NCBI GenBank assembly: GCA_009840595.1
Contig: VXNK01000020.1
Coordinates: 1-64,000 of the forward strand
DNA: 64,000 bases
Direction of reading: 5' to 3'
Origin: Rhodospirillaceae bacterium
GTDB lineage: Bacteria > Pseudomonadota > Alphaproteobacteria > Bin65
Made by a program: the position numbers and the translations under genes. The notes below the pieces were generated by a model, which saw only the letters and a list, made by a program, of their open reading frames with translations, ran no database searches and was not told where the DNA came from. Below, one piece after another: positions 1 through 4,057 of the stretch (positions are counted from its first letter, which is position 1; each line of letters starts with the position of its first letter).

Positions 1-784
1 ACACCGCCGACAAACTCAAACCGACATACCCTGCGGTCCTTGGCGGATGCTTACCCCTGAGCCCGGAAAGCTTCGGATAGCCAAGCGTAAAGACCGTCTG
101 CGCCACCACTGGACGCTGATACTTGATCCCTATCAACGGAACCAACGTTGGCTGGTCTACTTGAAGAATCGCTATATCGACGTCAGGATGTCTGTAGATC
201 GAATCGGGCCGGATCGAGAATTTGTTGCCCTGAAACTCTTGGCAGGCGTCTAATTCCATGTCGGATATAACATGTCGACAAGTCAGGACATAGGATGGGT
301 GAATGACAATGCCGGTACCCGCGACTACGTCGCCCTTGCTATTCGTTCCGGTTATATGCACCAAACCCGGTGCGCACAGCCGATAGAGGAAATCGGGGCC
401 GAGAGTCCGCGCCAACAAGAATTGTCCGCGCGACAAATTCCATTTCATCGACGCATACAGGTAATAGTCCCCTAAACCGCCAACTGATGGACGACCGTAC
501 CCAGAATGAATCAGAAGGCCGTCGGCTACCATTTGTTTGAGTATCTGCGCTACGCGTAGCGCATTCGGTTTCTTCTGAAAATTCCCGTTCGTAACGATAT
601 ACTGAAAAAAATCTGTCCCAGTGAGCGGCTTTGGTTTCCTATTTTTTGGAAAGGCCTTGCCAATTGCGCTGTAGCTTGCTGCAAGCTTGTCGACGTCGAA
701 GAAATTGAGTGCCATATCCACCAGCTTGAACTTCGATTCCAAGCCCCAGGGCGCGTTCATCGTATCTTCGTTGAAAAGTTGCAT
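1..784 (-). CDS. Trypsin-like serine protease with ~150-residue N-terminal domain (partial)
   Basis: Partial gene open to the left edge: 261 codons from ATG 784 with no stop. A chymotrypsin-fold protease signature is visible: GTGIVIHPSYVLTCRHVI with the catalytic His near residue 171, and HPDVDIAIL with the catalytic Asp near 203. The catalytic Ser would lie beyond the edge. About 150 residues precede the protease core; residues 55-100 look helical and winged-helix-like, which is inference. I see no signal peptide or membrane segment, so a cytoplasmic protein is likely, unlike periplasmic HtrA/Deg proteases. The start overlaps an upstream TAA (TAATG) and has only a weak ribosome site; an in-frame GTG lies 6 nt upstream. 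Base composition is clearly less GC-rich than the housekeeping genes, suggesting transfer. Trypsin-like peptidases of this intracellular kind are known in some bacterial conflict systems, but nothing here proves that role. Confidence 0.72.
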   Translation of the reverse strand, partial: MQLFNEDTMNAPWGLESKFKLVDMALNFFDVDKLAASYSAIGKAFPKNRKPKPLTGTDFFQYIVTNGNFQKKPNALRVAQILKQMVADGLLIHSGYGRPSVGGLGDYYLYASMKWNLSRGQFLLARTLGPDFLYRLCAPGLVHITGTNSKGDVVAGTGIVIHPSYVLTCRHVISDMELDACQEFQGNKFSIRPDSIYRHPDVDIAILQVDQPTLVPLIGIKYQRPVVAQTVFTLGYPKLSGLRGKHPPRTAGYVGLSLSAV

Positions 785-825: not shown

Positions 826-1115
826 ATGCCATGCACGCCACGTCCAAGTCAACTCTACCCGGCCACGTTGATCGCCGAGGAAATGACGCTGCGGGAACTG
901 CGCAAGGCCCGCGCGCTGACCCAGGCGAGCGTCGCGCGCGAGCTCGGCATCAGCCAGGACGCCATCTCCCGGCTGGAGAAGCGGAGCGACCTGCTGCTGT
1001 CCACGTTGCGCCGGACGGTGGAGGCGATGGGCGGCAGCCTGTCGCTGATCGCCCGCTTCCCCGACGCCCTCCGGTCGAGCTTGCCGGCATCGCCGCACAA
1101 GACGCCGACGATTGA
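826..1115 (+). pseudogene. HigA2-type XRE antitoxin, frameshifted near the C-terminus
   Basis: From about position 883 the translation is a clear Xre-family helix-turn-helix (LRELRKARALTQASVARELG, then ISQDAISRLEKRSDLLLSTL) followed by EAMGGSLSLIARFPD, the layout of HigA2-like antitoxins. Family members continue with a motif like DRPPVxLxGIA. Here that tail (RPPVELAGIAAQDADD, stop at 1113-1115) sits in the next reading frame. Loss of one C near 1065-1068 would explain it. Without correction the frame runs on to 1245 with an unrelated tail. The N-terminus before the HTH also looks unlike the family. No HigB-type toxin gene is recognisable upstream. It is most likely a decaying antitoxin in an accessory patch; a sequencing error is the alternative. 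Confidence 0.7.
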
Positions 1116-1228
1116 AGCTGCTTTGCTGTTGACTGTGGTTCGCGGTTTCGCTTACTGCTTACGCGAACTGGACGTGCCCCTGCCGTCGGCGAACTCATAT
1201 TGTCATGCAGCAACCGAAGGAAAAATAG

Positions 1229-1747
1229 ATGTCACAAAGAACTAAGGTGAATTGGCACTTGTTCGCATCTCTTTGTAGTCTTGTTCTGTCCATTGTTATT
1301 GCGCTTACGGGCGTTGGCTTCTGGCTCGGCGGCTTTACATCATCGTTTGAACGTCTTGCAGATAACGCAGTTGAAAAGGCAATGGACGATCTTTTGGGGC
1401 CCGGTACAATTATTCCTAAGTTCGCCCTGGAGCGAGCTAGTGTTCCGCCTGGATGGGTAGTTTGTAGCCAAAGCGGCACACCGGATCTTCAAGGAAGATT
1501 CCTCATAGGCACTACCGACATCAAGAATGCAGGCAAACCGGTTGGGGAACCTGGCCCAGGCTGGCGTGCTGGTGTGACAGGTGGTGAATCTCTTGGCAAA
1601 TTAGCGCCGGAAAAGGACGGTAACGACGACTTTGCGGACAATATCGGTAAGGGGCAGGGTGTTAGCGGTGATCGCAACTGGTATCATGAGCACTCGTTGC
1701 CTTCGGTTCAAGTGGTTTTCTTGTGTAGACAGCCTGACGTCAAATGA
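1229..1747 (+). CDS. Membrane-anchored phage-tail-collar-like protein
   Basis: A 172-residue protein. Residues about 10-33 are a strongly hydrophobic helix (LFASLCSLVLSIVIALTGVG), so it is probably anchored in the inner membrane with the rest outside. From about residue 66 it matches the phage tail-collar pattern: GTIIPKFALERASVPPGWVV, then TPDLQGRFLIGTTD, which resembles the usual 'G.I..F......P.GWl.CdG....PDLrGRF..G'. The C-terminal HEHSLPSVQVVFLCR is also like the end of collar-domain proteins. In phages the domain caps tail fibres; a single-TM version is unusual. It lies in the low-GC patch just after the broken HigA gene, and no other phage gene is visible. Function unknown. Confidence 0.6.
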   Translation: MSQRTKVNWHLFASLCSLVLSIVIALTGVGFWLGGFTSSFERLADNAVEKAMDDLLGPGTIIPKFALERASVPPGWVVCSQSGTPDLQGRFLIGTTDIKNAGKPVGEPGPGWRAGVTGGESLGKLAPEKDGNDDFADNIGKGQGVSGDRNWYHEHSLPSVQVVFLCRQPDVK

Positions 1748-2295
1748 CAAACCACGGTAGCTCCAAGCTCCTAACTATTGGGTGCGTGAGACTACAGGTT
1801 ACACATTGCTCTTTCGTGCCGGAGACAGCAGGGAAGATACAGCGTAGACGGCGACCCTCTCGCGGATCTCGGCTTTGGCATACAATGCTAACAGCTAGAT
1901 ATTCCGCGCCAACTGGACGATGCGCACTCCGTACCGTATAGGTCTGTGAGTCAGTTCACGCACGACGTTTCGCGGTAGTGGCTCCGTCGAACCGTGCCAG
2001 TCTGAACGACCGGAGGTGGTGAAGATGGCGAAACACGGGATGCTGCGTCGTCTCGGTATACGAAGCCAGCGGCAAGGCCCCCGGCTCCACGGCCCGACGG
2101 AACCATTACCACGGGTTCGGAGGCCGAAAATCGCAATACGTTGCCTCGCGCCGCCAAGGACCGTCCTGATTTTGAAAAAATCTGCATTCTATTTGATGAC
2201 TGATCCGGTAATTCCGTCCACACACTGTCTGAGTCAGAGAGATATATTCAATAAATACAGTTGTTTAGATGATTATTGCTCAAGTTCATAAAAAC
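1748..2295. other. Gene-poor accessory stretch
   Basis: About 550 bases without a supportable gene. Short open frames exist on both strands, but none has a credible start, ribosome site or recognisable protein motif. Composition falls to AT-rich near 2170-2295. It lies between the collar-like gene and the core gene pepA and looks like degraded mobile DNA. A sequence reminiscent of a group II intron 5' end (GTGCGTGAG near 1781) was seen, but no domain V or maturase could be found. Confidence 0.5.
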
Positions 2296-2382
2296 TTGAT
2301 CCGGGGCCCAGAGCCGTGAAGCGATGCCGTGCCGGGCGACTCTGGACTCCGGATTTCCGCTTCGCTCCATCCGGGGAGACAC
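2296..2382. repeat. Interspersed palindromic repeat, family A
   Basis: Contains TTGATCCGGGGCCCAGAG at the left and a matching arm (CTCTGGACTCCGGATTTCCG) followed by CTTCGCTCCATCCGGGG. The same architecture, GATCCGGGGCCCAG ... CTGGGCCCCGGAT ... GCTCCGTCCGGGG, occurs at 26411-26508, and a shortened form at 35408-35438. It lies downstream of pepA at the border of the accessory patch. These look like multi-copy intergenic elements able to fold as hairpins in RNA. Confidence 0.7.
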
Positions 2383-2470
2383 TGAGGGGCGGTCGAGGGC
2401 GTCAGCCACCAGAACGGCCGCGGGCCGCAAACGCGCGGTTACGGAAATGTTTCCGGTTCGAAACCTTCTC

Positions 2471-3961
2471 CTACCCCTCGTAATGCTCCGCGACCAGGCG
2501 GTCGAGCAGTTGCACGCCGAAGCCGGTGCCGCCCTTGGGCACGGTCGGCTTGTCCTTCTTGCTCCAGGTCACGCCGGCGATGTCGAGATGGGCCCAGGGC
2601 ACGTCGTTGACGAAGCGCTGCAGGAACTGCGCCGCCGTGATGCTGCCGGCGCCGCGCCCGCCGATATTCTTCATGTCCGCCGCGTCGCTGGTCAGTTCCT
2701 TGTCGTAGGCGTCGCCCAGCGGCATGCGCCAGGCGTGCTCGCCGACCGCCCTGCCGACTGCGGCGATCCGGTCGGCCAGCTCGTCGTTGTTGGCGAACAG
2801 GCCGCAATTCTCGTTGCCGAGCGCAATGATGATCGCGCCGGTGAGCGTCGCCAGGTCGATCATGAATTTCGGCTTGAACCGGTCCTGGGTGTACCAGAGC
2901 GCGTCGGCCAGCACGAGCCGGCCCTCGGCGTCGGTGTTGAGCACCTCGACGGTCTGGCCCGACATGGAGGTGACGATGTCGCCCGGCCGCTGCGCCGTGC
3001 CGGAGGGCATGTTTTCGACCAGCCCGGCGACGCCGACGGCGTTGCACTTCGCCTTGCGGCCGGCCAGCGCCTTCATCAGGCCGATGACGACGCCGGAGCC
3101 GCCCATGTCCCACTTCATGTCGTCCATGCCGGCGGCCGGCTTGATCGAGATGCCGCCGGTATCGAAGGTGACGCCCTTGCCGACGAACGCGACCGGCTGC
3201 TCCTTTGCGCCGCCGCCCTGCCACTGCATCACCAGCAGCTTGGATTCGCGCGCGCTGCCCTGGCCGACGCCGAGCAGCGAGCCCATGCCGAGGTCGCGCA
3301 TCTCGGCCTCGCCGAGCACCTCGACCTCGACGCCGAGGTCGCGCAGCGCCTCGCCCTGGGCCGCCAGGGTTTCCGGATACATGATGTTGGGCGGCTCGGA
3401 GACCAGGTCGCGGGTCAGGAACACGCCGTCGGCCAGGCTGTCCAGCGGCCGGAACGCCTTGCGCGCCGCCGCGGCGTCCGGCGCGCCGACCGTCATCCGC
3501 GCCAGCGTCGGCTTACGGTCGGGCTTCTCCTTGGTGCGGTAGCGGTCGAAGCGGTAGCTGCGCAGCCGAGCGCCGAAGCCGACCCGCGCCGCTGCTTCCG
3601 CGCCGCCGATCTTGCCGCCGTCGACCGGATCGAGCAGCAGGGCGGCGGATTTCGCGCCGGCGCCGTTGAGCGCCGTTACCGCCCGTCCGCCGGCATTCTG
3701 CGCCACCAGGGCGTCGAACTCCGCCGGCTTGCCGAGGCCGAGCAGGACCACCCGCTCCCAGCGGCCGTCGCCGGGGCTGGGCAGGACCAGCGCATCGCCG
3801 CCGCCGCCCTTGAAGCGGCTGGCCGCGACCGCGCGCGCGACGGCGCCGTCCAGGGCCTTGTCCACGGCCTGCGCCGAGGCCAGGAGCGCCCCGCCCTTCA
3901 GGGCGAAGACAACGAGCGAACCGTCTTTCGGCAATTCGAGCTTGCTGAAACGGATTTTCAT
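2471..3961 (-). CDS. pepA: Leucyl aminopeptidase (peptidase family M17)
   Basis: A 496-residue cytosolic aminopeptidase that removes N-terminal residues from peptides; it works as a hexamer with two metal ions. The M17 signature NTDAEGRL is at about 342-349 and the metal-binding block GKGVTFDTGG at 261-270, followed by Lys274 in ISIKPAAGM. The less conserved N-terminal macro-like domain occupies residues 1-165. Length and motif spacing are normal for the family, and all metal and catalytic residues I can check are present. It is transcribed alone, between the accessory patch and a repeat element. Some family members also bind DNA; nothing here shows that. Confidence 0.96.
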   Translation of the reverse strand: MKIRFSKLELPKDGSLVVFALKGGALLASAQAVDKALDGAVARAVAASRFKGGGGDALVLPSPGDGRWERVVLLGLGKPAEFDALVAQNAGGRAVTALNGAGAKSAALLLDPVDGGKIGGAEAAARVGFGARLRSYRFDRYRTKEKPDRKPTLARMTVGAPDAAAARKAFRPLDSLADGVFLTRDLVSEPPNIMYPETLAAQGEALRDLGVEVEVLGEAEMRDLGMGSLLGVGQGSARESKLLVMQWQGGGAKEQPVAFVGKGVTFDTGGISIKPAAGMDDMKWDMGGSGVVIGLMKALAGRKAKCNAVGVAGLVENMPSGTAQRPGDIVTSMSGQTVEVLNTDAEGRLVLADALWYTQDRFKPKFMIDLATLTGAIIIALGNENCGLFANNDELADRIAAVGRAVGEHAWRMPLGDAYDKELTSDAADMKNIGGRGAGSITAAQFLQRFVNDVPWAHLDIAGVTWSKKDKPTVPKGGTGFGVQLLDRLVAEHYEG

Positions 3962-4057
3962 GCGCGGATACCTGTCGGAAGAGAGCGTGAAGGGCCAGCG
4001 GCCTCTTACTTAATCGGCCCGCCGCCCCGGCGCAATCGACGGGGTTGCGGCCCACAC

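Follow-up and report, generated by a model that had tools for sequence, protein, structure and literature searches.

A trypsin-fold protease gene split by an IS66-family element at the start of a Rhodospirillaceae contig, and its apparently mobile single-gene family

The analysed stretch of DNA (the window) comprises 64,000 nucleotides from a Rhodospirillaceae bacterium (GenBank: GCA_009840595.1; contig VXNK01000020.1) and starts at base 1 of its contig, C108, in an assembly of 4.1 Mb and 168 contigs. The following features lie at its left end:

1..54 (plus strand): terminal 54 nt of an IS66-family element, identical to C158:2-55; inverted repeat GTAAGCATCCG... on the minus strand
55..62 (no strand): 8-bp target-site duplication CCCTGAGC; second copy at C163:4355-4362, on the other side of the element
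55..784 (minus strand): N-terminal part of the protease gene, residues 1-243 and one base; interrupted by IS66
365..784 (minus strand): N-terminal domain of about 140 aa, predicted winged helix and two linking helices
272..274 (minus strand): codon of the catalytic His, residue 171, motif CRHV, invariant in 15 of 15 rows
176..178 (minus strand): codon of the catalytic Asp, residue 203, motif DIAIL, invariant in 15 of 15 rows
826..1245 (plus strand): XRE-type helix-turn-helix ORF, divergent, 42 bp from the protease start; HTH_VI 5.7e-7

The protease ORF runs on the minus strand from an ATG at 784 to the left edge of the window. Pfam Trypsin_2 matched residues 156-239 of its product (E 1.8e-10, above the curated cut-off), and the positions of His171 and Asp203 are invariant across 14 relatives, which bears out the trypsin-fold His and Asp named in a preliminary description of this DNA. 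The same description saw no export signal and a foreign composition, and both observations hold: hydropathy of the window protein revealed no hydrophobic export segment (maximal 19-residue Kyte-Doolittle mean 1.34), and the composition of the gene is foreign, since its GC content is 50.7% (55-784) against 69.1% for positions 2441-64000 of the window. Positions 55-784 encode the N-terminal two thirds or so of a cytosolic, PDZ-less trypsin-fold protease.

Bases 1-54 of the window are the end of an IS66-family element and not part of the protease. They are identical to bases 2-55 of contig C158, the identity ending at TTAC; IS66-family inverted repeats start with GTAA, of which TTAC is the reverse complement. 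The adjoining CCCTGAGC borders on GTAAG at a single site of the genome, C163:4355-4367. From 4362 down to 4065 on its minus strand, contig C163 (4416 bp) continues with REAPVVMQQGAVTSETVTALPGERLFLFSAISRPGNSGGPVMSEDGYVVGL... and then a stop codon. This segment contains the last ~98 protease codons including the catalytic Ser (SRPGNSGGPV), and the C-terminal fragment shows 71% identity to the corresponding region in three relatives. At its very end, C163 carries 54 bases whose reverse complement matches C13:2357-2410 exactly; this part of C13 is the end of an IS66 element on the tnpA side. The element on C13 has three genes, with a transposase matching PF03050 at 7.7e-92, and its two ends (IRL and IRR) agree at 17 of 20 bases. 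Transposase, inverted repeats beginning with GTAA and an 8-bp duplication on both sides of the insertion are thus all present. A second copy of the element extends over C13 (L008) 1-2410 and C158 (L009) 1-63, with a perfect 8-bp duplication GGTTTTTC and its third gene cut at the contig start.

Because CCCTGAGC lies on both sides of one copy and GGTTTTTC at the other, the genome holds two copies of IS66 that the assembler has collapsed; one of them splits the protease gene between its catalytic Asp and Ser. The contig end at the window start is therefore not random but explained by the transposon that interrupts the gene. Neither assembled fragment holds a complete triad, His and Asp being encoded in the window and Ser on C163. 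Since the insertion falls between Asp and Ser, the protease is inactive in this assembly. The preliminary description overlooked this interruption; as assembled, an active enzyme cannot be made. It had further supposed that the missing left part of the locus might hold a partner, but what lies there is the IS66 element followed by the C-terminus of the protease itself. Its caveat that the catalytic Ser might be lost from the full gene was checked, and the Ser is present on C163. Taken alone, the identity of the gene and its disruption by IS66 are practically certain. The fragments from the window and from C163 were analysed separately.

The family considered here consists of 14 uninterrupted relatives on six MAG contigs, two Rhodococcus plasmids and six viral contigs, giving 15 rows together with the window. 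A genome scan with the single window protein as query found nothing, and an alignment search of genome contigs revealed six relatives. The full-length relative of the same genus, from Rhodospirillaceae bin65 (G001; locus L050), shows 39% identity. Other MAG relatives reach 54% (Nitrospinota bin107), 52% (a gammaproteobacterium), 45% and 53% (two Chloroflexi) and 47% (Latescibacteria). Sponges are presumably the source of all MAG relatives other than bin65 and bin107. These two originate from the sponge Aplysina aerophoba (PMC5649159).

The N-terminal domain and the H, D, S triad are kept in all 14 full-length relatives. The order of the triad is that of trypsin, split over two fragments in the present genome, and the Ser lies in a GNSGG motif. 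The extra N-terminal domain that the preliminary description had noted is thus genuine, with about 140 aa ahead of the protease domain. The start ATG is common to the window gene and the relatives (L049: MELWNQDTMNAPWG; window: MQLFNEDTMNAPWG), and all members end after the protease domain, with the stop directly behind the S1 domain. Above the Pfam cut-off, the relatives and the C163 fragment matched trypsin-type families only and showed no PDZ domain; none of the 14 proteins has a clear hydrophobic segment that could serve as export signal or membrane anchor (maximal 19-residue mean 1.71). The residue equivalent to chymotrypsin 189 is Ile in the family, with Met or Thr in one member each, and the catalytic Ser is surrounded by an HtrA-like SAI-[SA]-RPGNSGG motif. 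Judged from these sequences, the whole protease would have about 340 aa, with a predicted winged-helix N-domain and a PDZ-less S1 trypsin fold.

The catalytic domain is closest to DegS, DegP and MarP in sequence and fold, and the family shares with HtrA/Deg proteases the S1 catalytic fold, the H-D-S triad, GNSGG and a usually aliphatic residue at position 189. This would agree with an ordinary HtrA/Deg-type quality-control protease whose start was mis-called or whose PDZ domain is missing, a possibility raised in the preliminary description. Unlike HtrA/Deg, however, the family has no PDZ domain, signal peptide or membrane helices, carries a winged-helix-like N-domain and is mobile and patchy; the start codon agrees among relatives and the stop follows directly on the S1 domain. 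We regard this explanation as very improbable, the architecture ruling out an ordinary HtrA.

AlphaFold2 modelling of the relative L045, with an 8-row alignment that included the window sequence, gave a mean pLDDT of 80.5, with the N-domain mostly at 85-93. The model contains helices 18-31 and 34-43, a short strand 57-58, helices 59-69 and 78-90 and strands 94-98 and 110-113, and helices 117-143 lead into the protease domain. The order a1-(a)-b1-a2-a3-b2-b3 predicts a winged helix with an added helix, a call made from the order of secondary structure in one model, whose N-domain coordinates were searched together with the protease. In these fold searches with the full model the protease domain took all matches and the winged helix was not confirmed; modelled alone and with no alignment, the N-domain reached a pLDDT of 39. 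A profile search of the N-domain against the PDB yielded no relative (best E 2.7, the unrelated TarM). The 14 N-domains had no EAD or other match at E<0.05 in a Pfam copy that may lack some EAD/Trypco models, with neighbours scanned in part, and against PADLOC they produced a sub-significant AbiEi match only (E 0.011). The N-terminus of AbiEi is a winged helix. Across the family the pI of the N-domain ranges from 4.7 to 9.6, so that sensing of a protein or a small ligand is as likely as DNA binding.

Among catalogued phage families, the nearest is possibly phrog_18002 (330 aa, no assigned function). It matches residues 83-295 of the protein from L053, a viral contig (E 7e-10), so that some 50 residues of the N-domain are covered, and none of its members was recovered when the phage collection was searched in translation. 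Outside the genus, a class-wide protein search returned trypsin-domain matches only, and scans of viral sequences with clade alignments found no further members. Fusions of the N-domain to other proteins were absent from plasmids and from 398 genomes of the phylum. The family is rare and patchy: a profile of the N-domain had no match in a sample of 397 further genomes from the phylum, and 50,697 phage genomes, searched in translation, yielded one weak trypsin-only hit and nothing of full length.

The two Rhodococcus plasmids and six viral contigs, five of the latter with integrases in the stretch read, are mobile carriers, and some other relatives lie in islands with integrases or restriction genes. 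In 11 of the 14 relatives, the GC content of the gene lies below that of its flanking DNA. In L045 (7874-9018, Nitrospinota) and L048 (7873-9018, Chloroflexota), 1146 bp are 90.9% identical at the DNA level. The common unit consists of the gene and a leader of ~115 bp only, and the flanks are unrelated; misbinned contigs could alter single phylum labels, but not the finding of one gene in unrelated flanks. The protein tree mixes phyla and does not place the two copies from one genus as sisters (support of 92-97 near the window row, which represents the N-terminal part only). As far as these comparisons reach, the protease crosses phyla as a single gene carried by prophages, plasmids and islands, and nearly identical copies in two phyla could serve as a marker of single-gene exchange between distant bacteria. 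The surroundings of an island edge and of mobile-element or conflict type, as proposed for the window, are supported. Upstream of the common unit, L048 carries an 81-aa N-terminal remnant of an ATPase-like gene.

Carriage by mobile elements would also be consistent with anti-defence or with regulation of lysogeny. In the first case, phages and plasmids would employ the protease as an anti-defence or superinfection factor that cuts host defence proteins, as the presence of the gene on six viral contigs and two plasmids might suggest. It is, however, also found on chromosomal contigs of several phyla, and the single weak trypsin-only hit among the 50,697 phage genomes shows that it is not a common lytic-phage gene; we consider this role improbable. 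A regulator of its mobile element, acting as an immunity or lysogeny switch through DNA binding of the winged helix and through protease control of a repressor or of excision, is somewhat less improbable but still unlikely. The predicted winged helix and the proximity of several copies to integrases would suit it. The range of pI does not indicate a general DNA-binding surface, though, and no operator-like palindromes (perfect inverted repeats of at least 7 bp) were detected upstream of the protease. Furthermore, no neighbouring target gene is conserved across loci, and the protease also occurs on plasmids and islands that do not carry the same element type.

An all-against-all comparison of ORFs at the 15 loci uncovered no conserved partner; only the protease and recombinases (tyrosine and serine) were common. 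Pairwise neighbour matches were isolated, for example restriction-type methyltransferase ORFs at L045 and L046. The protease of L046 adjoins a type IIG restriction enzyme, that of L047 a DUF4145/PD-T7-4-like gene, and the L050 locus includes an MBL gene and two membrane proteins. This MBL-fold gene, three ORFs upstream of the protease, matches PADLOC PDC-M48B (3.7e-95) as well as LmuA-, RTasMBL- and Avs1a-type MBL models. The protease could accordingly act in trans on a gated MBL-fold pro-nuclease, cutting and activating it as the trypsin domains of Hachiman, Avs1 and Lamassu do; the HamA protease cleaves after Ile (PMC12799240), and the family has its HtrA-like Ser motif. Against this, no relative of the L050 MBL was found at the other loci compared or in the genome of the window (G000), two membrane-protein ORFs separate the MBL gene from the protease, so that it is not immediately upstream, and the family protease is not fused to HamA, Avs, LmuA or RT. 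We think it improbable that the family activates such a nuclease. An MBL nuclease as general partner was rejected, being present at L050 only among the loci compared.

Cytosolic trypsin-fold proteases also occur as domains of defence proteins in PADLOC (RT-Protease_XI, LmuA, HamA, Avs1b). The best PADLOC matches of the family were RT-Protease_XI (down to 8.5e-15) and LmuA (down to 7.8e-12), both in the protease domain; the confinement of all matches to this domain counts against a role in defence. In contrast to the defence domains, the family is not fused to RT, HamA, LmuA or STAND, has no obligatory adjoining MBL nuclease and possesses its own N-domain. In the CARD-NLR proteases, LypA, which stands in an immune context, similarly has a helical N-terminal domain before the trypsin-like domain; however, LypA combines an all-helical CARD (aa 1-80) with an ATPase domain and an NLR partner, whereas the family has a predicted beta-wing, no ATPase and no partner (PMC13236601).

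A scheme with one gene would resemble the E. coli protease Lit, likewise a solo gene with a proposed dormancy until a phage cue. Lit is a metalloprotease unrelated to the trypsin-fold family, and the likeness is one of analogy only. The most likely mechanism, as we infer it, follows the logic of solo Lit and not of nuclease-protease pairs. The latent protease would wait in the cytosol, held inactive by the winged-helix domain and the two linking helices, which may act as sensor or oligomerisation switch. A phage-derived cue, either protein or nucleic acid, would release it, and the released protease would cut a host or phage protein after small aliphatic residues, whereby the infection is aborted. 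Cleavage after such residues is likely because of the Ile at the 189 equivalent and the HtrA-like Ser motif, and, as there is no nuclease partner, the simplest scheme is that the protease itself directly cuts a host or phage protein, as Lit does. Precedents exist in Lit for a solo phage-activated protease (PMC9712102, PMC12926258) and in Hachiman for activation of a trypsin-like immune protease through induced oligomerisation; the trypsin domain of a Hachiman system became toxic on forced dimerisation and cleaves after isoleucine (PMC12799240). No report of a phage assay of any family member was found in the open-access papers searched.

Our preferred reading as a whole, a single-gene, mobile-element-borne latent protease of phage-conflict type that is gated by a winged helix and broken in this genome, falls slightly short of an even chance. 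More tentatively, and with the balance rather against it, the relatives may represent a previously undescribed cross-phylum defence family, found chiefly among sponge symbionts: a cytosolic serine protease gated by a winged helix, complete in one polypeptide and carried as a one-gene cassette. Trypsin-like proteases of bacterial immunity have so far been described as fused to or paired with nucleases, NLRs or reverse transcriptases. If the proposal is true, a solo mobile protease regulated by a winged helix would be the smallest form of proteolytic immunity, and it could be tested with one gene.

Further observations concern the surroundings of the protease. At L050 5320-7590 (plus strand), two ORFs for unclassified predicted membrane proteins (217 and 165 aa) come immediately after the MBL-fold gene, and the three are a candidate system of their own beside the same-genus protease. 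In the window, the XRE-type ORF (826-1245) resembles the antitoxin half of a toxin-antitoxin pair, with no visible toxin partner. The low-GC island also contains a 172-aa ORF (1229-1744, plus strand), whose N-terminus contains a hydrophobic segment and which matches nothing in Pfam or PADLOC; no tRNA was found at the island edge. A 33-bp intergenic repeat (94%) is shared by both genomes of the genus on opposite strands, at 2344-2376 of the window and at L050 11124-11156. On C163 (L012), two overlapping ORFs of 92 and 169 aa (3206-3990, plus strand) have no match in Pfam or PADLOC, and the 169-aa ORF displays the RRSVSASYYALFH motif typical of HEPN-like proteins; they are possibly a toxin-antitoxin pair on the island. 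The same contig carries an IS630-type transposase, recognised by eye and split over two reading frames (1687-2822, minus strand).
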